Assembly (NCBI RefSeq): GCF_037914945.1
Contig: NZ_CP149787.1
Span: 2,170,001-2,234,000 of the forward strand
Source of the DNA: Haloterrigena sp. KLK7
GTDB taxonomy: Archaea; Halobacteriota; Halobacteria; Halobacteriales; Natrialbaceae
Reading direction: 5' to 3'
Length of the DNA stretch: 64,000 nt
Shown: positions 19,236 through 47,041 of the stretch, in pieces
Position numbering within the stretch: the first letter of the stretch is position 1
Layout: the number at the start of each line of letters is the position of its first letter
Notes under the pieces: model-generated
Told to the model about the DNA's origin: nothing
Seen by the model: the letters and a program-made list of their open reading frames with translations, nothing else
The model's database searches: none
Position numbers and translations under genes: made by a program

Positions 19236-20540
19236 ATGAATCAGCGAACCCGCGTCACCGTCGCCACCGTCGTCATCGCCCTTCTGATCGCATCGCTCGG
19301 GGTCCAGGCAGCGGTTATCGAACGCGAGAACAGGGTCGTCAACGACGACGGGCGGTATCCCGGGAACACGCTCGTCGGCGTCCATTCGTACGACGAGACC
19401 GGTCGGATCGTCGAACTGACGCCCGACGGCGAGGTCGCCTGGGAGTGGTCGGTGCCCGAATCGCGGGTGTTCGGCGTCGAACAGCTCGACGAGGAGACGG
19501 TGCTGGCGGCCGTCGCCGTCAAGCGACTCGCCGAAGACTGCGACGAGGAATACCTCGAGTACGACGAGAAGGACGGCCACTGCGTCCGCAATCGCGTCGT
19601 CGAGATCGACAAGGAGTCGGGCGAGGTCGTCTGGGAGTACGACTGGTACGACGAGTTCATCGCCTGGCACGAGGTCCACGACGTCGAGCGACTCGAGAAC
19701 GGCGAGACGGCGATCGTCGATATGGGGAACGATCGCGCGTTGACCGTCGACCGCGACGGCGAGATCACCTGGGAGTGGCACGCCGAAGACCACCTGACGC
19801 CCGGCACGCCGTTCTACGAGGAGTACGGCGGCCCCGAAAAAGCGGGGGAGCACGACGACTGGACCCACATGAACGACATCGACCACCTGGAGAACGGCAA
19901 CTTCCAGCTGAGCATCCGCAACTTCGACGTGATCATCGAGGTCGATCCGGAGACCGACGAGGTGGTCGACGTCGTCGGCGAACCGGGGAATCACAGCGTG
20001 CTGGACAAACAGCACAACCCCCACCGCATCGAAGACCAGGGGACGATGGTCGTCGCCGACAGCGAGAACGGCCGCGTCGTCGAACTCGACGTCGAATCCG
20101 AAGAACGCATCTGGCGCTACACCGGTCCCGCGACCGACTCCCTCCAGTGGCCTCGAGACGCGGACCGACTGCCCAACGGCAACACGCTCATCACCGACTC
20201 CCGGAACAACCGCGTGCTCGAGGTCGATCCCGACGGCGAGATCGTCTGGCAGTTCGGCGATCCCGACGGGACGGTCATTCCGCTGGCGTACGAAGCCGAT
20301 CGCATCGGCGCCGGCGAACGGTCGGACGTCCCGCCGGGGAGCGAACTGACCGCGGTCGAGGACGAACCCGGCGCCATCACGGCGACGATTCGCGAGTGGG
20401 AGGCCATGGCCCAGTACGTCTTCCCGACGTGGATGCACCTCCCGCAGATACTGCACGTCGTCGGCATCGCCCTCGGGGTCCTGTGGCTCTGTGCGGAGGG
20501 GGTCGTCTTCGGCTGGCGTCGAATCAGTGCCGGTCGATGA
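19236..20540 (+). CDS. Arylsulfotransferase (ASST)-family beta-propeller protein
   Basis: 434 residues: an N-terminal membrane anchor (about 7-27), a beta-propeller of repeated blades such as TPDGEVAWEWSVPE, VDRDGEITWEWH and VDPDGEIVWQFG, and a C-terminal helix (LHVVGIALGVLWLCAEGVVF). The blades carry the His-containing segments HEVHDVERLENGET, WTHMNDIDHLENGNF and NPHRIEDQGT, typical of ASST. The propeller is expected outside the cell, anchored at both ends. Whether it transfers sulfate or is a sensor or binding protein is not evident. Confidence 0.82.
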   Translation: MNQRTRVTVATVVIALLIASLGVQAAVIERENRVVNDDGRYPGNTLVGVHSYDETGRIVELTPDGEVAWEWSVPESRVFGVEQLDEETVLAAVAVKRLAEDCDEEYLEYDEKDGHCVRNRVVEIDKESGEVVWEYDWYDEFIAWHEVHDVERLENGETAIVDMGNDRALTVDRDGEITWEWHAEDHLTPGTPFYEEYGGPEKAGEHDDWTHMNDIDHLENGNFQLSIRNFDVIIEVDPETDEVVDVVGEPGNHSVLDKQHNPHRIEDQGTMVVADSENGRVVELDVESEERIWRYTGPATDSLQWPRDADRLPNGNTLITDSRNNRVLEVDPDGEIVWQFGDPDGTVIPLAYEADRIGAGERSDVPPGSELTAVEDEPGAITATIREWEAMAQYVFPTWMHLPQILHVVGIALGVLWLCAEGVVFGWRRISAGR

Positions 20541-20731
20541 TCGGATCCGGGGGTACCGGCGTTGCGACTTCCCCGACCCCGGTATCGATCCCGGGGCGTT
20601 CACGTCGGTCGATGGGCGACAAGCCTGCAGGCTCGGCGTCGCACCCTCGCGTACGGCATCGTTTCAATTCGGCTTACTCTCCGTTCCGTGCGAAATACCT
20701 TTACGACCGTCTGCGGCGTTACATACTCTGT

Positions 20732-20905
20732 ATGCCCGGACTCGTACAGCAGACTGCGGAAGCGATCGACGGACTGTCGCGATCGGTCTGGGACGACTCG
20801 AGTCAGTTCCAGAAGGCGATCGTCGCCGTCGTTCTCATCGTCACGGGGTTAGCGATCCCGGTCGTTCCGATCGTCCTGGTCGCCCGATACGTCGCCAGCA
20901 GGTAG
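20732..20905 (+). CDS. Small single-helix membrane protein (57 aa)
   Basis: A 57-residue protein starting MPGLVQQTAEAIDGLSRSVW with one membrane helix (about 29-53, VAVVLIVTGLAIPVVPIVLV) and a basic end. A CCTTTACG element at about 20698-20705 lies 27-30 bases upstream, matching a leaderless promoter. Function unknown. Confidence 0.65.
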   Translation: MPGLVQQTAEAIDGLSRSVWDDSSQFQKAIVAVVLIVTGLAIPVVPIVLVARYVASR

Positions 20906-21121
20906 TACAGCGCTGCGTGCGGTCTGGATCCCAGAAGTCGGCCTCGGGCACTCGTACAGCTCGGAATTCCTCGTATCTGATACCGCTCTCTCGAGGACAC
21001 GGACCGTGTTGAGTGCGAACCCGGCTGGGACTGGAGACTGACGGATAGCAACACCGAATCGATGAGAGTGATACCGTTAGAACCGGCCATCCGCGAACGC
21101 AGTTAAATAACAGAGCCGCGA

Positions 21122-21436
21122 TTAGGCGTCGACCGTTGTCCGGACCTCAACCACGCCAGTTCCGCGCACAACGACATCGTACCCCGCGTACTCGAACGAA
21201 ACTTCGCCAACAGCAGGCTCAGATCGGGAGGTAAACAACTCGTTCAACGCGTCCGGATTGATCGCCTCATAGAGTGGCGGCAATTCGAGCATGTCCAGAC
21301 CAGACGCTTCTGCAACCGCCGAAACAACCGCATAGACGGGCGTCTTCTCGGTGCCTCGCTTCCATTCAGCAGTGGTAGACAGAGTCAGTCCAGCTTGAGA
21401 TTCATCAGCGGTAACCTGTGTGTTCATCTTTCTCAT
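21122..21436 (-). CDS. HalOD1 output domain protein
   Basis: About 104 residues. The C-terminal part (TPVYAVVSAVAEASGLDMLELPPLYEAINPDALNELF, then VSFEYAGYDVVVRGTGVVEV) is the HalOD1 domain, a haloarchaeal module named as a predicted output domain of two-component systems. ATG 21436 is chosen because a CTTTTATGG-like box lies about 25-30 bases upstream; ATG 21427 is possible. It stands alone, next to PadR-type sequences. GC content drops around here compared with the flanks. Confidence 0.78.
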   Translation of the reverse strand: MRKMNTQVTADESQAGLTLSTTAEWKRGTEKTPVYAVVSAVAEASGLDMLELPPLYEAINPDALNELFTSRSEPAVGEVSFEYAGYDVVVRGTGVVEVRTTVDA

Positions 21437-21551
21437 GGACCCTGAAGTGCAACAGTCCTCCATAAAAGGATTTACAAACTCTGTTGAATGAGACACGGTC
21501 TTTCATGTTTGACGGAGCATTGTCAGCTCTATTCTTCTGTTGTTGACCATC

Positions 21552-21705
21552 ATGCGGTCTGATGTGTACGATTTGACCGGTTTCCAACGAGATCTTCTGT
21601 ACGCGACTGCAGGCTTAGACGAACGGATATTCGGTTACGCGACGTGGAGTGCGTGAGATCGAAGTCCGCCGCGACTGGGAAAACCAGTCTATCTCTGAAT
21701 TCTTC
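21552..21705 (+). pseudogene. Decayed PadR-type regulator fragment
   Basis: From ATG 21552 the frame reads MRSDVYDLTGFQRDLLYATA, then stops at TGA 21654-21656. This matches the start of the intact PadR gene at 21930 (MYDLTGFQRDLLYVIAGAD). Shortly after the stop, in the +1 frame, VRRDWENQ resembles the end of the intact protein (ERREWENQ). The central winged-helix part is missing, so this is a copy with an internal deletion and frameshift. Confidence 0.7.
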
Positions 21706-21929
21706 GAGAACTGTGCGTCACGTCGGCAAGAGTCGAACGGCAGAAGCCCGAGACGAAGACAGTGATGACCGAGAGAGGTGTGTTATTCCTGTTCTTTCGC
21801 TGGAGGATGAGACGCAACTCGTTCAATTACCGTGCAAAAATATCACTATGAGGCACGTTCACATCATAGTCACACCCAATATATTGTGGGAAAGGTATCA
21901 AATACAGATTCGTTGAATTCTCTCGTGAG

Positions 21930-22205
21930 ATGTACGACCTCACTGGATTCCAGCGTGACTTGTTATACGTGATCGCAGGTGCCGACCAGCCGTCCGGCCA
22001 AACCGTCAAAGAAGAGGTTGAGGGCTACTACGAGAATGAGATCAATCACGGCCGGCTGTATCCGAATCTCGATACACTGGTCAACAAGGAATTCGTCGAG
22101 AAGGGACAGCTCGACAGACGAACGAATTATTACGCAATCACTACTGAAGGACGAGAGAAGATTCAAGAACGGCGGGAATGGGAAAACCAGTACGTTAATT
22201 TCTGA
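21930..22205 (+). CDS. PadR-family transcriptional regulator
   Basis: 91 residues forming one PadR winged helix: GFQRDLLYVIAGAD (6-19), PSGQTVKEEVEGYYENEINH, then GRLYPNLDTLVNKEFVEKG with the canonical LYPNLDTLVxKxFV wing entry, and RRTNYYAITTEGREKIQER. PadR proteins normally repress a neighbouring gene in response to stress or phenolics. A TCAAATAC element about 28 bases upstream would give a leaderless mRNA. Its relic at 21552 suggests a past duplication. No obvious target besides the small gene downstream. Confidence 0.88.
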   Translation: MYDLTGFQRDLLYVIAGADQPSGQTVKEEVEGYYENEINHGRLYPNLDTLVNKEFVEKGQLDRRTNYYAITTEGREKIQERREWENQYVNF

Positions 22206-22296
22206 GATTAATTGATTTGGTTTGACGGCACGTTCTCCTCCTTCTAGCTTTTTGCCGACAAGAAGGCTTATACTGGCAGAATTGAGTCGTCAACGT

Positions 22297-22608
22297 ATGA
22301 CCGCAAAACATGAGGACACGCTGCCAAATCTCGTAACGATCGTCGGTCGAGGTGTTCCATCGAACTACGAGATCACCGTCAACGGCGAGATCGAATTAGT
22401 CGGTTCCGATCCACTCGAGGAAGCGACGGTCGTCACAGACCACGCCGCAGAAGGGGCGATCGAGACCGGTGTGATGCGGTTCCGGTTCTCCGGCGAAATG
22501 GCGAACGTGCACGTCGTCGACTGGAACGGTACGCCTGCATCGGAATCACCGAACACGCCGGAAGTCCACATCGACTACGGCGTGCCCGCTCGAAGTGACG
22601 GCAAATAA
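22297..22608 (+). CDS. Conserved-looking small beta-rich protein, unknown function
   Basis: 103 residues beginning MTAKHEDTLPNLVTIVGRGV, with alternating hydrophobic strands and acidic turns and no membrane helix. ATG 22297 is 23-30 bases after a CTTATACT element at 22267-22274, arguing for a leaderless start rather than the longer arginine-containing frame from 22222. I do not recognise the family. It follows the PadR gene on the same strand by about 90 bases but has its own promoter. Confidence 0.65.
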   Translation: MTAKHEDTLPNLVTIVGRGVPSNYEITVNGEIELVGSDPLEEATVVTDHAAEGAIETGVMRFRFSGEMANVHVVDWNGTPASESPNTPEVHIDYGVPARSDGK

Positions 22609-22940
22609 CTACCTGAGAATTTTGAACAGGTCTTACGGGAGATCTCTTTATCGCGTTTGTCCGTCGGGAGGTCCAGTGACCGCCTGCCACTGCGATAGCT
22701 GCTGAGAGAACTCCAACGATGATTTGCGTGGGAGAGACAGTCAATTGCGGTAGATTCCTTACATCGGACACGTCTCCCATCCGATCGTCGCGCTCGTTTC
22801 CGAACTCGAGAGACTGACGCCCGCCCAGCCAGGACGTATCAGTTCGGACCGAACGCAACTTATGTTCCTGATCGAAGTAGGGCAGAATTATGTTCTGGCC
22901 TATGGCGCACAACGGGCGAGAGACCGGAGGGAGACCGTAG
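22609..22940. other. 332-base gap upstream of amide hydrolase gene
   Basis: The gap is relatively AT-rich in its first part. It should contain the promoter of the downstream hydrolase. I see no gene, repeat or clear palindrome. Confidence 0.4.
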
Positions 22941-23936
22941 ATGTGTACGCGATTAGTGTATCTCGGACCCGAGAATATCGTGCTCACCGGCCGGTCGATG
23001 GACTGGCACGGCGAGATCGGGACCAACATTTGGGTCTTCCCACGGGGAATGGAACGAACGGGCGAAGTCGGGCCGGCCTCGATGGCGTGGACCGCCGAGT
23101 ACGGCAGTGTCGTCGCATCCGCGTACGACATCGCGACGACCGACGGGATGAACGAGGCGGGTCTGGTCGCGAACGTCCTGTGGCTCACCGAATCCGACTA
23201 TCCCGAGTGGGACGGCGACAGACCTGGACTGTCGATCTCGCTGTGGGCGCAGTACGTCCTCGACAACTTCGCGACGGTGGCCGAGGCGGTCGAGAACCAC
23301 CGGAACGAAGAATTCGTGGTCGTTTCCGACGAAATCCCGGACGAAGGCCGGTTGGCCACCCTCCACCTGTCCATCTCGGACGCCACGGGTGACAGTGCCG
23401 TCCTCGAGTACGTCGACGGCGAGTTGACGATCCACCACGGTCGGAAGTATCAGGTGATGACGAATTCCCCGACGTTCGACCGACAACTCGCACTCGACGA
23501 GTATTGGTCGGAGATCGGCGGAACGGTCATGTTACCGGGGACGAATCGCCCGGCTGACCGATTCGCCCGCGCGAGTTTCTACGTGGACGCGATCCCGCAG
23601 ACCCGGAACCGTCGGGCCGCAACGGCGAGCGTCTTCGGCGCGATCCGCAACGTCTCCGTGCCGTACGGGATCAGTACGCCGGACGCACCGCATATCTCCT
23701 CGACGCGGTGGCGCACGGTCGCCGATCACCGTGACCGACGCTACTACTTCGAGTCGGCGCTCTCACCGAACGTTTTCTGGCTGGACCTCGACGGGATCGA
23801 CTTCGAAGCCGATGCCGGCGTTCGATCGCTGTCGCTCGGTGAGAACCAGGCGAACGTCTTCACCGGCGATGTCGCCGACGAACTCGTCGAGACTGAGTCG
23901 TTCGAGTTTCTCGGTGTCCCGGCTCGATCGGGCTGA
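22941..23936 (+). CDS. Linear amide C-N hydrolase (choloylglycine hydrolase/penicillin V acylase family)
   Basis: 331 residues of the Ntn-hydrolase fold. Cys2 becomes the N-terminal nucleophile after removal of Met1. Arg18 and Asp21 (TGRSMDW) and Asn175 (MTNSPTFD) sit at the classical positions of penicillin V acylase and bile salt hydrolase. A later Arg in PADRFARASF completes the site. There is no signal peptide, so the protein would be cytoplasmic unless exported otherwise. In archaea the substrate could be an N-acyl amino acid or acyl-homoserine-lactone-like amide; this is speculation. It stands alone. Confidence 0.92.
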   Translation: MCTRLVYLGPENIVLTGRSMDWHGEIGTNIWVFPRGMERTGEVGPASMAWTAEYGSVVASAYDIATTDGMNEAGLVANVLWLTESDYPEWDGDRPGLSISLWAQYVLDNFATVAEAVENHRNEEFVVVSDEIPDEGRLATLHLSISDATGDSAVLEYVDGELTIHHGRKYQVMTNSPTFDRQLALDEYWSEIGGTVMLPGTNRPADRFARASFYVDAIPQTRNRRAATASVFGAIRNVSVPYGISTPDAPHISSTRWRTVADHRDRRYYFESALSPNVFWLDLDGIDFEADAGVRSLSLGENQANVFTGDVADELVETESFEFLGVPARSG

Positions 23937-23968
23937 TCTCGGCCGCGTCCGACGCACTCTTACGGAAA

Positions 23969-24002
23969 GTCAAGGAGAAAGCCCCGCCCTTTAGGGTGGG
24001 CT
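23969..24002 (+). mobile_element. Possible solo right end of an IS200/IS605 (IS1341-type) element
   Basis: The sequence CAAGGAGAAAGCCCCGCCC followed by TTTAGGGTGGG forms a 7-bp stem (CCCGCCC/GGGTGGG, one G-T pair) with a TTTA loop. From memory, haloarchaeal TnpB-type insertion sequences end with such a string. No tnpA or tnpB is nearby, so it would be a remnant or a non-autonomous palindromic element. Confidence 0.45.
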
Positions 24003-25498: not shown

Positions 25499-25701
25499 CC
25501 TCCTCACTCGAGTTCGAGTGCGACGGCTCCGATTTTCCGGGAGAATGAGACGTGGGATACGCAAATCGCTGGCCTCGGCACTCATAGGGCTCGTCACCAC
25601 CGGGTGCCGAGTCCGGCTCGGAGCGAGTGAATCGTCATCGGCCACTCGAGCCTACGAGAGTCGCTCCAAAGACGGTTTGGATTCCGCGAAAACGTGGGCG
25701 G

Positions 25702-26974: not shown

Positions 26975-27262
26975 CTACTGGGCCGCCGATTCGGGCGACG
27001 ACTCCGCCCGCGGCTCGACCTCGAGTTCCTCGAGGTCCTCCATATTGCCCTCGGCCGTCGCCTGCTCGATTTTGGCGATCTCCTCCGCGTAGTGGAGGAA
27101 GGTGTCGACCGAGGCGACGACGACGCGGGCCTCGATCGTCAGGAGTTCGATCCCGACGACGGACACGCGCGCCCAGACGTCGATGACGACGCCCTTGTCG
27201 AGGATGCGATCGAGCACTTCGGAGAGGCTCGAACCGTCCGGTCGCCGCTGTGGTGATGCCAT
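26975..27262 (-). CDS. gvpA: Gas vesicle structural protein GvpA, isolated gene
   Basis: 95 residues. The core [55 protein letters not shown] (about 13-67) follows the almost invariant GvpA sequence that assembles the gas-vesicle wall. The tail after about 68 is longer and more acidic than usual (typical GvpA is about 75 residues). None of the gvpC, N, O or F-M genes occur in the window, and the genes on both sides are unrelated and on the opposite strand. It is therefore an orphan here. GvpJ/M are alternatives, but [13 protein letters not shown] favours GvpA. Confidence 0.9.
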
Positions 27263-27419: not shown

Positions 27420-27827
27420 GTGGTCGAGACGGCCGTGTCGACCGTTCCGCCCGAAGCCGAGCGCTTGCTCGAGAGCGAGCCGGTAATGGCCCATCTGGGC
27501 ACCTGCGTCGAGGGCCGACCGCACGTCGCCCCGGTGTGGTACCGGTACGTCGCCGACGAGGAGGTCGTCGAGATCGTCACGACGGGTCGAAAGCTGGCGA
27601 ACATCCGGGAAAACCCGCGGATCTCGCTTTCCATTCAGAAAGACGAGGCGGGCCAGACGCGCTGGATGGTGTCGCTGCTCGGCACCGCGACGGTCGTCGA
27701 CGACCCCGACGAGACGGCTGCGGCGCGCCGGCGGATCAACGAGAAGTACGACGCGGAGCCCGCGGCCTACGCCGAAAACACGCTCGTCCGGATCGCGGTC
27801 GGCTCGGCGAGCTATCGGACGTACTGA
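27420..27827 (+). CDS. Pyridoxamine 5'-phosphate oxidase-like flavin protein
   Basis: About 135 residues of the split-barrel FMN-binding fold: VMAHLGTCVEGRPHVAPVWYRY (about 23-44), VEIVTTGRKLANIRENPRISLS and a MVSLLGTATVVDD strand. Members reduce or bind flavin or F420 or act on small molecules; the true PNPOx substrate residues are not evident. A GTG start at 27420 is inferred; the frame stays open upstream but the sequence there is arginine/proline-rich. A dispersed repeat begins 13 bases after the stop. Confidence 0.82.
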   Translation: MVETAVSTVPPEAERLLESEPVMAHLGTCVEGRPHVAPVWYRYVADEEVVEIVTTGRKLANIRENPRISLSIQKDEAGQTRWMVSLLGTATVVDDPDETAAARRRINEKYDAEPAAYAENTLVRIAVGSASYRTY

Positions 27828-27840
27828 GATCGAGACCTGG

Positions 27841-28098
27841 CGTGCGGTGGCGCGCGCTGTCTGCGAGGCGCGACCGAAGGGAGCGCCTCGAAACGCGAAT
27901 AGCGCGGGACCGACGGTCCCGCGAACCATACGAACGGGCGCGGAGCGCCCGTGAGTAGACGGGGAACGAAGTGACCCGTGAGCGAGGTCGGCCGAACGAC
28001 AGTGAGGGCGACCGATTACTATCGCGCGAGGGATGAGCGACCGAAGGGAGCGAATCGGTTGGGGAGGGAGTGGCACTCCCCTGTTGCCACGATAGCAG
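27841..28098 (+). repeat. Dispersed intergenic repeat element, copy A
   Basis: About 258 bases starting CGTGCGGTGGCGCGCGCTG and ending near GTTGCCACGATAGCAG. Bases 27841-28007 are identical, in inverted orientation, to 30790-30956. The core contains short perfect hairpins such as GCGGGACCGACGGTCCCGC and GGGCGCGGAGCGCCC. No convincing protein is encoded. Confidence 0.85.
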
Positions 28099-28165
28099 AG
28101 ACACTACGTTGCTCTCAGTTGCTCCTAATTCCACCATTCTGTGATAGAAGCACCAACGAAGAACG

Positions 28166-28372
28166 TCTGACTCAGGCTGGCGGCGGGGAATCGCCTCGCC
28201 CTCCCCAGCCGATTCGCTCAGTCACTCCGTTCCTTCGCTCATCCCTCGCGCAGTTTCGAACCACAGTTCGCTGGGCTTCATGGGTCGCTTCGCTCCCCAT
28301 TCGCCTCTCGAGGCGCTCACTCCGTTCGCGCCTCGCGTTCGCTCACTGTGGTTCAGCGCGCGCCACCGCATG
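28166..28372 (-). repeat. Dispersed intergenic repeat element, copy C
   Basis: Same ends as copy A but opposite orientation: a left end resembling GCATGCGGTGGCGCGCGCTG (reading from 28372) and a right end GAGGGATGAGCGAAGGAACG through GGCTGGGGAGGG. The core differs and closes on itself through GAACCACAG / CTGTGGTTC arms. It lies 68 bases from copy A, head to head at the right ends. Confidence 0.75.
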
Positions 28373-28444
28373 CCGGGTGTTCGAACCGGTGTGAGACAGC
28401 GAATCGCTATCCGCCCGCTCATCGAACTCGGTCGCCGACACCCC

Positions 28445-29338
28445 CTAGCTGCGACGGTCCGACGACGCTTCGAACTCGAACGTCTCGCCGTGCTCGAGGT
28501 ATTCGACCCGGTCCTCGAGACCCGCTTTCCGGATCGCCTGCTTGAAGTTCGACAGCGGCGACCGGAACACCTCGTAGTCGTTGTAGTGGATCGGGATCGC
28601 CGTGTCGGCGTCGATCAGGTCGACCGCCTCGACGCCCTGCGCGGCGTCCATCGTGAGCAGCACGCCGAGGATCCGCGTCCCGCCCAGATGCAGCAGTGCG
28701 AGGTCGATGTCGGGGTAGCGCTCGGGAATCTCCTCTAAAGCGTCGTAGACGAGCGTATCGCCCGAGACGTAGAGCCGCATCAGGGGCGGCTCGTCCGGAC
28801 TCGCCGCCTCGTCGTCGGGCCGGAACTCGAGCATGCTCCCCATCACCGGCGGCAGTCCCTTCGAGACGACCGGCGGGCCGTGGCGACCCGGCATCGCGGT
28901 GATCGTCAGTTCGGCGTCGCCCTTGCGGATCCGACACTCGTCCCACGTCTCGAGCGGATAGGTCTCGAGAAAGCCCTTCTCAGCGAGTTCGACGGCCGCG
29001 TGCGGAGTCGTGACGATCGGCAGGTCCGAATCGAGTTTCGCCTCGGCGACGCGGTCGAAGTGGTCGCCGTGGTAGTGGGAAAGCAAGACGAAGTCGATCG
29101 GCGGGAGGTCCTCGATCTCGAGTGCGGGATCGGTTCGGCGCCGCGATTTGATCCCGTAGCCCAGATGAACGTGATCGCCGCTGTGGAGGAAGTTCGGATC
29201 CGTGAGGATCGTGAAGCCGGCGTACTCGATGATGACGGTCGCGGTCCCGACGAAGAAGATCGACCCGTGCTCGAGGTCGGCGGGTTCGTCCGCTTCGCCG
29301 GTCGGTATCTCGAGGTCGACGGCGTGTTCGAGACTCAT
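28445..29338 (-). CDS. MBL-fold metallo-hydrolase (UlaG/lactonase-like)
   Basis: 297 residues of the metallo-beta-lactamase fold. Motifs in order: GTATVIIEYAGFTILTDPNF (about 31-50), the metal site LLSHYHGDHFD (HxHxDH), a late SGDT and a final IPIHYNDYEVF. The layout resembles the UlaG/RomA-like or outer-membrane-lactonase branch. Start ATG 29338 follows a hydrophilic N-terminus typical of haloarchaea; the longer frame upstream lacks it. Divergent from the thioredoxin-reductase-like gene with about 150 bases between; both sit inside the inverted-repeat pair. Confidence 0.88.
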   Translation of the reverse strand: MSLEHAVDLEIPTGEADEPADLEHGSIFFVGTATVIIEYAGFTILTDPNFLHSGDHVHLGYGIKSRRRTDPALEIEDLPPIDFVLLSHYHGDHFDRVAEAKLDSDLPIVTTPHAAVELAEKGFLETYPLETWDECRIRKGDAELTITAMPGRHGPPVVSKGLPPVMGSMLEFRPDDEAASPDEPPLMRLYVSGDTLVYDALEEIPERYPDIDLALLHLGGTRILGVLLTMDAAQGVEAVDLIDADTAIPIHYNDYEVFRSPLSNFKQAIRKAGLEDRVEYLEHGETFEFEASSDRRS

Positions 29339-29486
29339 GGACGGCTCTCCACCGCCGACTCGTTTCAACCCCATTCGGAACTCGCGGGACTGACACGGGA
29401 GCTGATACGGTCGCGGTGGCAGCCCCAGTACTCCCGGCCGCATATTCACGGCTCAGCCTCAACCCGCTGGGCGACCTCCGACGCGT

Positions 29487-30590
29487 ATGACCGATCCCCT
29501 CGAGTACGAAGTCGTCGTGATCGGCGGCGGTCCAGCCGGCCTGACGACGGCGATCTACGCCACGCGACTGGGCCACCGCACGGCCGTCTTCGAGAAGGAG
29601 GGCGGCCGCCACGCGAAGGTCGCCCACGTCCACAACCTGCTGGGCGTCTCCGAGAACGTCTCCGGCGAGCAGCTGGCGACCCACGCCGTCGACCAGCTCG
29701 AGCACTACGGCGGCGACTTCTTCCCGGACGCGGTCGAGTCCGTGACGCGGCCGGAGGAAGGCGACGGCGATGGGCCCCGATTCCGCCTCGAGTCCGCCCA
29801 CGCCACGGTCGACGCCCGGCGGGTCGTCTTCGCGACCGGCTTTCGCGATCGGAGTCCGGACGTCCCGGAACTCGAGCGCTTCACGGGCCGCGGGCTGCAC
29901 TACTGTCTACACTGCGACGCCTACACGCTCGGCGACGGCCCCGTGTTCGTCCTCGGCCACACGGAGCACGCGGCCCACGTCGCGATGACGATGCTCAACT
30001 TCACCGCCGACGTGGACCTCCTGCTCGACGACCGCGAGCCCGAGTGGGGCGAGGAGACCGACGCGCAACTCGAGGCCCACCCGGTCGACGTGATCGACAC
30101 GGCCGTCGTCTCGGCCTACGGGGACGAAACGATTTCCGGCGACGAGTCGCCGCGGCTCGGCGGCCTCGAGCTGGCCGATGGAACCGAACGGGACTATCTG
30201 GGCGGCTTCGCGATGTACGGTTCCACGTACAACGCCGGTCTGGCCGCCGACCTCGGCTGTGACCTGCGCGAGGACGGCGCCATCGCCGTCGACGAGAACC
30301 GCGAGACCAGCGTCGACGGCGTCTACGCCGTCGGCGACGTCACCCACGGCCAGAACCAGACCACCATCGCCATCGGCGACGGGGCCCACGCGGGACTGGC
30401 GATTCACAAGGACCTCCGGCCGTTTCCGAAGTCCGTCGAGGAACTCGAGGATGAGGGCGACGGGGAGGAGACCGGCGCTCTCGAGGACGGGGTGCCGGGA
30501 GCCGCGGCGGATCTGCGCGCCCAGATGCGACGGGTTCGCGACCTCGAGACGCACCCGGGGCTTCGCGGGCCGTCGCCGGGTCGCGAGTGA
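29487..30590 (+). CDS. Thioredoxin-reductase-like FAD protein with CxxC and degenerate pyridine-nucleotide motif
   Basis: 367 residues. The FAD motif IGGGPAGLTTAIYATRLGH starts at 12 and the redox cysteines are C140 and C143 (YCLHCDAY). The second Rossmann motif, normally GGGDSAxEEA, reads VLGHTEHAAHVAM and has lost its glycines. The HRR(D) motif that contacts NADPH phosphate is also absent. A standard FAD end (VYAVGDVTHGQNQTTIAIGDG) is present. The enzyme may take electrons from ferredoxin or another donor, as in flavin-type ferredoxin-dependent thioredoxin reductases; no thioredoxin gene is adjacent. Confidence 0.85.
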   Translation: MTDPLEYEVVVIGGGPAGLTTAIYATRLGHRTAVFEKEGGRHAKVAHVHNLLGVSENVSGEQLATHAVDQLEHYGGDFFPDAVESVTRPEEGDGDGPRFRLESAHATVDARRVVFATGFRDRSPDVPELERFTGRGLHYCLHCDAYTLGDGPVFVLGHTEHAAHVAMTMLNFTADVDLLLDDREPEWGEETDAQLEAHPVDVIDTAVVSAYGDETISGDESPRLGGLELADGTERDYLGGFAMYGSTYNAGLAADLGCDLREDGAIAVDENRETSVDGVYAVGDVTHGQNQTTIAIGDGAHAGLAIHKDLRPFPKSVEELEDEGDGEETGALEDGVPGAAADLRAQMRRVRDLETHPGLRGPSPGRE

Positions 30591-30699
30591 TCGCTAGGTT
30601 CGGGGCTCGCTGGTCCTTCTATAATCGATATACCGCGGTCTGTTCACGGTCGCGTAGATAGCGACGCCCGCGAGCGGAACCGGATACGAACGAAGCGTT

Positions 30700-30956
30700 C
30701 TGCTCACGCTGGCGGCTGTGAGTGCCACACCCTCCCCAACCGATTCGCTCACTCCGTTCGCTCATCCCTCGCACATCGTCGTCGGTCGTCCTCACTGTCG
30801 TTCGGCCGACCTCGCTCACGGGTCACTTCGTTCCCCGTCTACTCACGGGCGCTCCGCGCCCGTTCGTATGGTTCGCGGGACCGTCGGTCCCGCGCTATTC
30901 GCGTTTCGAGGCGCTCCCTTCGGTCGCGCCTCGCAGACAGCGCGCGCCACCGCACG
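30700..30956 (-). repeat. Dispersed intergenic repeat element, copy B
   Basis: Inverted partner of copy A: 30790-30956 is the exact reverse complement of 27841-28007. The remainder toward 30700 keeps the conserved right-end string (GAGGGATGAGCGAACGGAG, then CGGTTGGGGAGGG) with scattered differences. Confidence 0.85.
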
Positions 30957-30995: not shown

Positions 30996-32069
30996 CTAGT
31001 TCTCTAGTCGCTCGAGGGCCGCCGCAACCACCAGGGGGAAGGTGATCGTCGCGTCGGCGTAGACGGAGACGTTGTCGGCGTCTTTCTCGAGTTTACCCCA
31101 CGAGCGGGCCTCGTCTAAGGTGGCCCCGGAGAGGCCGCCGGTCTGTTTGGGGTCCATGGTCAACTGGACGGCGTAGTCGTAGGCGTCGGGGGAGACGAGC
31201 ATCGTCTGGAGGGTGAAGTTCTTGGGGACGCCGCCGCCGACGACGAAGGCGCCGGCCTCGTCGGCGTGGTAGGCGATGTCGGTCAGCGGCGTCATGTCGG
31301 CCAGCGCGTCCAGCGTGAACGCGCCCGTCTGGGAGTACATCCAGGCCTGGAGCCCGAGCACGGAGTCCTGTACGGCGGGACAGTAGATCGGGACGTCGTT
31401 CTCGTAGGCCGCGGCGGCGATGCCGGGCCCCTCGTCGACGTCGTCGCGCTCGTTGACGTCGGCGTTCGCCCGTCCCAATTCCTCGGTGAGCCGCTGGATC
31501 GAGACCGCGCCCTCCTCCTCGCACTCGGCCTCGAGCACCGGGAAGACCTCCTCGCGGAGGTGGCTCTCGAAGTCGGCGAAGAACTCCTGGGGGAGGTAGA
31601 CGTTGTAGATGCGGTCGACCCCCTCGTCGCGCAGCGTCTCGTCGTGTTCGCGCTCGGTCTTCCCCTCGGCGGTCACCTCGCCGTGGTGGTGTTTCCCGCC
31701 GATGGCCTCGATGCTGTCGTGGGTGAGGTTCGCGCCGGTCGTCACGAGGACGTCGATGTGGCCCTCGCGAATCAGGTCGGCGACGATGCGCCGCATCCCC
31801 GTGGGGACCATCGCGCCCGCGAGGCCGAAGAAGACGGTCACGTCGTCGTCGAACATCGACTCGGTGACGCCGACGGCCTCGTGGAGGTTCGCCGCGCCGA
31901 CGCCCGCGTTCCCGTACTCGTCGGCGAGTTCGCCGACGGTCATCCCCGCTCGGACCTCGGCGTGACCGACCGGGTCGTGGGAGAACGCTTCCCGCTCGGG
32001 TTCGCGGTGGCCCTCCCCGTCCGCCTCGCTGTCACCGTCGTCGCTCCCGTGCTCGTGCTCGTCGCTCAT
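30996..32069 (-). CDS. dys: Deoxyhypusine synthase
   Basis: 357 residues. Deoxyhypusine synthase transfers a 4-aminobutyl group to one lysine of eIF5A using NAD. Recognisable blocks are FFGLAGAMVPTGMRRIV, TTGANLTHDSIEA, IYCPAVQDSVLGLQ, GGGVPKNFTLQ and SGATLDEARSWGKL with the catalytic lysine in SWGK, followed by VYADATITFPLVVAAALE. The first ~30 residues are an acidic His/Asp/Glu extension. Its substrate protein eIF5A is encoded about 5 kb away (37128-37502) together with an agmatinase. Confidence 0.96.
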   Translation of the reverse strand: MSDEHEHGSDDGDSEADGEGHREPEREAFSHDPVGHAEVRAGMTVGELADEYGNAGVGAANLHEAVGVTESMFDDDVTVFFGLAGAMVPTGMRRIVADLIREGHIDVLVTTGANLTHDSIEAIGGKHHHGEVTAEGKTEREHDETLRDEGVDRIYNVYLPQEFFADFESHLREEVFPVLEAECEEEGAVSIQRLTEELGRANADVNERDDVDEGPGIAAAAYENDVPIYCPAVQDSVLGLQAWMYSQTGAFTLDALADMTPLTDIAYHADEAGAFVVGGGVPKNFTLQTMLVSPDAYDYAVQLTMDPKQTGGLSGATLDEARSWGKLEKDADNVSVYADATITFPLVVAAALERLEN

Positions 32070-46639: not shown

Positions 46640-46779
46640 CGTGCGGTGGCGCACGCTGGATCACGGTTCCCTCCACGGTCACCGTGATCCGAAGCCGTGC
46701 GAGGGATGAGCGAGGGAGCGAAGTGACCGAGCGAATCGGCTGGGGAGGGTGTGGCGATTCCCCGTTGCCGCGAGAGCAG
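46640..46779 (+). repeat. Dispersed intergenic repeat element, copy D
   Basis: About 140 bases with the family ends: left CGTGCGGTGGCGCACGCTG, right GCGAGGGATGAGCGAGGGAG through CGGCTGGGGAGGG and CCCGTTGCCGCGAGAGCAG. The core is short and closes by GATCACGG / CCGTGATC arms. It occupies most of the 444-base gap after the RNase gene; nothing else is supported there. Confidence 0.75.
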
Positions 46780-47041
46780 CGCACTCGAGTTATCAATAAC
46801 TGCCCCCGAGACATCAGTTACCACTGCAAAAACGAGGTCGGGACAGCCGCTAGTGAGTGAACGAGCGAAAACTCGGTCGAACTCCGATTCTTTCCGCTCG
46901 AGGACTCGAGCGCCGCGTCCGTGAATCGCTCGTCAGGCGACGGTCCTGTCCCGAGGTAGATCGTGAGATCGGCGCGGCGAAGGCCCGGAACCGCTCGCCG
47001 AGGGGATCAGAAACGCCGTCCGGATCGGCGACCACCTCGGG

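Follow-up and report, generated by a model that had tools for sequence, protein, structure and literature searches.

The two identical inverted arms found in the window, the whole stretch of 64,000 nucleotides of the Haloterrigena sp. KLK7 genome analysed here, belong to a hairpin repeat that is dispersed in intergenic regions, as its copies A and B. It is very probable that the block of genes between these two members was inverted through ectopic recombination and that the interior of one was copied into the other by conversion. We regard this as an ordinary inversion mediated by repeats, which themselves are of the modular structured intergenic kind.

Direct comparison bears out the claim of an earlier note that positions 27841-28007 are the exact reverse complement of 30790-30956, the two arms being identical over 167/167 bases. 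The weaker similarity that it followed to 28098 and 30700 is also found, first as an extension with few mismatches (182 nt, 27841-28022 against 30775-30956, 98%) and then as a second matching block beyond the arms (53 nt, 28026-28078 against 30720-30772, 92%). A chance origin of the arms is excluded, since the inverted repeats not belonging to the family in the surrounding 12 kb reach at most 44 nt and are mostly 70-79% complementary, and a further copy of the arms, 98% identical, lies 1.27 Mb away (C1:925624). Element A occupies positions 27841-28100 of the plus strand, with its head at 27841-27859, an interior rich in modules and a tail starting at 28053; its 3' part (27966-28100) was matched by cmsearch. 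Element B occupies 30699-30956 of the minus strand (cmsearch match 30699-30831). Another repeat copy had been claimed between the arms, and this is element D, at about 28167-28378 of the minus strand, arranged tail-to-tail with A (cmsearch E 2.3e-27). The window has one more member of the family, a lone minimal element at 46641-46781 (plus strand, E 1.6e-33).

The two genes reported between the arms are likewise present. One encodes an MBL-fold metal-dependent hydrolase (MBL; 28445-29338, minus strand; PF12706 Lactamase_B_2) and the other a thioredoxin-reductase-like flavoprotein (TrxR; 29487-30590, plus strand; PF07992, with TIGR01292 below cut-off). The outer neighbour of A is a PPOX-class F420-dependent oxidoreductase-like gene (PPOX; 27420-27827, plus strand, start uncertain, TIGR03618 below cut-off), and that of B is the deoxyhypusine synthase gene (DHS; 30996-32069, minus strand; NF002630, 536 bits); A lies 3' of the former, B 3' of the latter and D 3' of the MBL gene. 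Further from the arms, the window contains a C/D box guide RNA, sR-tMet (25571-25643, minus strand; RF02163, 71.7 bits), a small gas-vesicle GvpA-family protein (26975-27262, minus strand; PF00741) adjoining a glycosyltransferase, and a possible acquired segment at 20001-24000, where GC is about 58% against about 67% elsewhere in the window.

Read in the orientation of DHS, the order DHS> <MBL TrxR> <PPOX is found in five congeners, Natrinema versiforme, Natrinema zhouii and Halopiger goleimassiliensis, and the window genome alone, against these eight relatives, has DHS> <TrxR MBL> <PPOX. The order in the eight relatives is ancestral and that of the window genome is derived, the segment 28101-30698, which carries D, MBL and TrxR, being inverted with respect to all congeners. 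The opposite order, for which a comparison with relatives had been suggested, thus exists, and together with the structure of the arms themselves it supports the earlier claim that recombination between the arms would invert the block. In congener G005 (locus L219), a tail-to-tail pair of elements, E1/E2, is placed between DHS and MBL, and a third element, E3, bearing a long interior, between TrxR and PPOX. Element A adjoins PPOX as E3 does, yet its tail and the inter-tail spacer are those of E1; conversely, B adjoins DHS as E1 does, yet its tail is that of E3. Repeats are therefore found at both breakpoints as reciprocal hybrids of the two elements of the congener, and because A and B carry swapped head flanks and tails the crossover is placed inside the repeats. 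It has to be noted that in this comparison the gene neighbours discriminate, while head-flank identities alone do so poorly, and that the intergenic flanks are too diverged to give the exact crossover point. The 167-nt interior shared by both hybrid arms is 97% identical to that of E3 and missing from E1, in agreement with the gene conversion that had been claimed for the arms; between the window genome and G005, the genes inside the block show 88% identity.

These data show that, ancestrally, one member of the family was situated between DHS and MBL and another, inverted, between TrxR and PPOX, and the following steps can be proposed. Homologous (ectopic) recombination between these two inverted copies would have flipped the block, and the interior of the PPOX-side copy, of E3 type, would have been converted into the other copy during or before the crossover, which would account for the identity of the arms over 167 bases. 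These two timings are inseparable, the DHS-side copy of the congener lacking the long interior. The inversion shares with other repeat-mediated inversions by homologous recombination the inverted copies, the reciprocal hybrid repeats and the opposite order in relatives; nothing fundamental differs, apart from the repeats, which are unusually short here, at about 260 nt, and come from a structured family.

The inversion is known from one assembly, a contig of 3.84 Mb, compared with those of the relatives. Short-read assembly can go wrong at inverted repeats of about 260 bp, where an assembler could have flipped the block; but the genome is assembled in 5 contigs, of which this is the main one, and the arms differ outside the 167 nt as reciprocal exchange predicts, so that an artefact of this kind is very unlikely. 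Among the other species, the DHS-MBL spacer of the salina group (L220, L221, L222) contains, instead of the element pair, a different sequence of about 0.74 kb, which may include a small gene, and the TrxR-PPOX spacer is without an element in G001.

It had also been claimed that recombination between the arms would swap the promoters' surroundings, and this part finds no support. Both breakpoints fall in convergent 3'-3' spacers, on the 3' side of each of the four genes, and the divergent promoter region common to MBL and TrxR (29339-29486, from gene coordinates) is internal to the inverted block; no promoter thus acquires new surroundings, the effect of the flip being limited to a new pairing of facing 3' ends. 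The perfect inverted arms and the proven inversion event might suggest an invertible regulatory switch, in which the arms are kept as recombination sites, the block flips in the population and expression changes. Nevertheless, neither a promoter nor a reading frame is altered by the flip, which leaves a regulatory switch unsupported; no recombinase gene was seen near the arms, these are ordinary members of a family of about 100 copies, and the genomes of the genus are divided into one derived and five ancestral (n=6), the pattern that a single fixed event would leave. Such a switch is highly improbable, and we infer that the inversion better fits a tolerated, near-neutral crossover.

The anatomy of the family was established with 78 complete elements read from fetched stretches of the genome. 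All have a conserved head (GCGGTGGCGCGCGCTG) and a conserved tail (AATCGGYTGGGGAGGG), which enclose a strongly covarying hairpin and, optionally, further hairpin modules. In order, a sharp head is followed by hairpin P1, the motif GYGCGAGGGATGAGCGA, hairpin P2, which closes with GAGCGAATC, and the tail CGGYTGGGGAGGGNGTGGC..CC..GCCAC. The head-to-tail distance varies between 62 and 269 nt in a stepwise manner, because hairpin modules are inserted in P1 or within P2, as exemplified by GGAAGACG..CGTCTTCC, GCGGGACC..GGTCCCGC and GAGGYGC..GCRCCTC. Conservation stops abruptly at the head, and the tail-side ends of the elements are fuzzy.

A search with the arm finds 28 places in the genome. The head pattern GCGGTGGCGCGCGCTG has 41 exact matches and 74 with up to one mismatch, and the tail pattern GAATCGGYTGGGGAGG, allowing one mismatch, has 90, against 0 for a reversed-pattern control. 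All 90 tail matches fall on contig C1 (3.84 Mb), the remaining 0.80 Mb having none, a placement with a chance of about 4e-8 if copies were spread evenly over the genome. A covariance model of the minimal element gives 67-148 matches per genome in six congeneric genomes, with 114 in the window genome; in G005, 106/106 are on the main chromosome. This restriction is not universal, eight matches being found on a 987 kb plasmid record of Natrinema thermotolerans. At E values of at most 0.001, the model matches 224/391 genomes of Halobacteria, in 54/86 genera. A phylum draw of 247 genomes has 18 with a match, which all belong to the same order. The family spans Halobacteriales, with no match in any other class among the genomes sampled. 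Copy number differs by genus, with one only in some and 31 or 66 in others belonging to different families. In single-copy genomes (L238, L240 and L243; L242 and L245), the element is at the same site across species of a genus, and at other sites in other genera. An origin as an ancestral single-copy gene was considered and rejected, as the single copies are conserved within genera but their contexts differ between genera. No matching family was found in Rfam 15 with curated or relaxed thresholds, nor any description of the motif sequences or of such haloarchaeal intergenic repeats in the open literature, subscription journals being outside the scope of this search.

All 78 elements are intergenic according to gene calls made by a codon-usage script: 43 are flanked by 3' ends on both sides and 6 by 5' ends on both sides; the rest have a single 5' end, next to the head in 18 and next to the tail in 11. 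A 3' end is thereby faced by 54/78 heads and 61/78 tails. Convergent spacers are enriched, making up 37/69 of the spacers with an element against 27/218 of those without (odds ratio 8.2, p 1.6e-11), where the control spacers were taken from the neighbourhoods of elements. At least nine opposite-strand tail-to-tail pairs within 0.6 kb exist in the window genome, and no head-to-head or tandem pairs of complete elements were found in it within this distance. The three copies A, B and D, in each of which the head is just 3' of a stop codon, had suggested a 3'-UTR element of fixed orientation; this was rejected, the family as a whole having no such rule.

The exchange of interiors proposed for the two arms seems to be general in the family. 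The flanks of 43/78 elements are syntenic with fetched G005 stretches, and 23/78 copies have no counterpart in the fetched congener loci. In 37 orthologous pairs between the window genome and G005, the element has the same position and strand; about 13 of their interiors are recognisably inherited and about 24, or about two thirds, are replaced, as judged by eye on alignments. A replaced interior is a different, but again well-paired, hairpin or module set, between flanks that are 79-96% identical. At one further orthologous site (C1:1562866 against L323) the element has the opposite orientation, through an in-place flip or a replacement.

Moreover, the near-identical interiors dispersed over each genome differ between species. 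In the window genome (G000) they are those of A/B and C1:925627, of the pair 2167868/3539191 (98% over 110) and of 850426/2759660 (95% over 147), and in G005 those of L268/L310 (94% over 315) and E3/L294 (93% over 171). Copy C (C1:925624-925790, L003), the third bearer of the arm interior (98%), is long, and its G005 counterpart is minimal. The window genome also contains an inverted pair 4.6 kb apart, C1:3414818 (minus strand) and 3419440 (plus strand; L112), 99.1% identical over 111 nt, which is a second candidate for inversion or recent conversion.

From the alignments, the best explanation of this family-wide pattern would be ectopic gene conversion with the invariant head and tail as anchors: the process proposed for A and B would take place without crossover, and interiors would be exchanged between loci. 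Loss followed by reinsertion could in principle also replace interiors, but is disfavoured because the strand is kept at orthologous sites. Efficient gene conversion is known from haloarchaea, which are polyploid.

Since the elements are dispersed, short, non-coding, structured and intergenic, it could be thought that they are non-autonomous transposons (MITE-, SMR- or PATE-like) and that the arms are recent independent insertions of one source copy. Such elements exist in haloarchaea (PMC3119063), and the occupation of sites varies by species, as illustrated by the empty DHS-MBL site of the salina group, the empty TrxR-PPOX site of G001 and the copies without a congener counterpart. Against this, the congener already has an element at both sites, oriented in the same way towards the outer neighbours, and the independent insertion of the two arms is refuted because their hybrid flanks require recombination. 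Single elements have no terminal inverted repeats, inverted ends occurring only in tail-to-tail pairs, and k-mers shared at their borders, as target site duplication would leave, remain at the shuffled level, a weak test given the fuzzy 3' end. No ends of IS200-IS605/PATE type shared with the elements were found at the 10 tnpB loci scanned in the same genome, nor end-like sequence at its tnpA/tnpB genes. A transposon nature of the family, with arms of this origin, is therefore unlikely.

Related candidates fared no better. An omega-RNA or PATE origin was rejected, as the ten tnpB loci have no complete head-tail element at their ends. The sole intact Y1 transposase gene found, beside tnpB (L232), forms an ordinary IS605 pair with it, at a locus without head or tail. 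The element pair C1:1526257/1526681 is missing in a congener (L264), where the spacer is too diverged for the junction to be read.

The fold offers another perspective on what is being conserved. The consensus structure, derived from 35 minimal elements, has 32 pairs; 95.6% of cells are paired against 84.2% in shuffled alignments, and cells changed on both sides number 117 against 37.7, a value reached by 0/500 shuffles. When the structure is slid, only 27-51% pair. Compensatory changes, including all four Watson-Crick types, are present in 7/8 P1 pairs, and P1 stems picked by Watson-Crick pairs only contain 346 standard, 11 G.T and 4 A.C pairs. GNNA-type loops and tandem G.A pairs are confined to the head-to-tail strand. 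A fold conserved in this way, with P0, P1, P2 and the tail and with G.A in tandem and G.U pairs on that strand, indicates that the head-to-tail strand is selected as a single strand, and selection is shown to be strand-specific. We think that this fold favours RNA while being compatible with single-stranded DNA, a transcribed RNA probably being the likelier of the two.

These features raise the possibility that the elements are structured RNAs transcribed head-to-tail, either RNA genes or 3'-UTR elements under selection, with the repeats as a by-product of their multicopy nature. The compensatory changes, the excess of G.T over A.C in P1, the strand-bound loops and G.A pairs, and the single, genus-stable copies of some genera point to this, whereas the lack of a conserved promoter-like signal in the 100 nt upstream of the head and of an orientation rule with respect to neighbouring genes points away from it; on balance, it is a serious possibility that falls somewhat short of an even chance. 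It would be complementary to the recombination of dispersed repeats preferred here, because RNA alone would not explain the inversion. Joining both, a more tentative and rather doubtful proposal is that of an undescribed functional structured-RNA family of Halobacteriales, with a single copy in some genera and about 100 in others, where these loci would form one recombining pool where head and tail anchor cassette swaps and occasional crossovers cause inversions.

Among known repeats, the closest plan is that of the BOX elements of Streptococcus pneumoniae, boxA-boxB(n)-boxC (PMC3049150), with two conserved end modules, a variable number of hairpin modules between them, a strong predicted fold, enrichment between convergent genes and rare new insertion. 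Conserved ends with variable internal modules and enrichment in convergent spacers are both found in the elements described here. The likeness considered here is architectural, and the present elements differ in being archaeal, in having modules of many types where BOX has tandem boxB, in the absence of terminal inverted repeats from single elements, in a very strong interlocus exchange of interiors and in a tandem G.A core. With the REP/BIME/REPIN sequences (PMC3116915, PMC2817692, PMC3733652) they share a copy number of about 100 per chromosome, hairpins specific to one strand, pairs in opposite orientation and an intergenic location mostly not 5' of genes. Nevertheless, they are multi-hairpin elements of 142-350 nt instead of units of 20-40 nt, their pairs are tail-to-tail and no GTAG or CGTC tag was seen; no RAYT-like transposase gene was found beside an element, the only intact Y1 protein, that beside tnpB, not being element-flanked. 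Haloarchaeal MITEs, SMRs and PATEs (PMC3119063) are also short, non-coding, dispersed elements with palindromes; in contrast, the elements of this genome lack terminal inverted repeats, a target duplication signal and ends shared with tnpA/tnpB, their positions are long-lived, and their interiors are exchanged, copies not being near-identical throughout.

In sum, a strongly structured repeat is present in over half of the sampled haloarchaeal genomes without an Rfam entry or a description in the open papers searched, and a polarised inversion is documented for which both parental repeats are visible in a relative. The element loci would make it possible to measure directly how often conversion occurs between dispersed sites, how long its tracts are and what fraction involves a crossover. 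Should the elements be RNAs, few structured RNA families of archaea would be as highly repeated.
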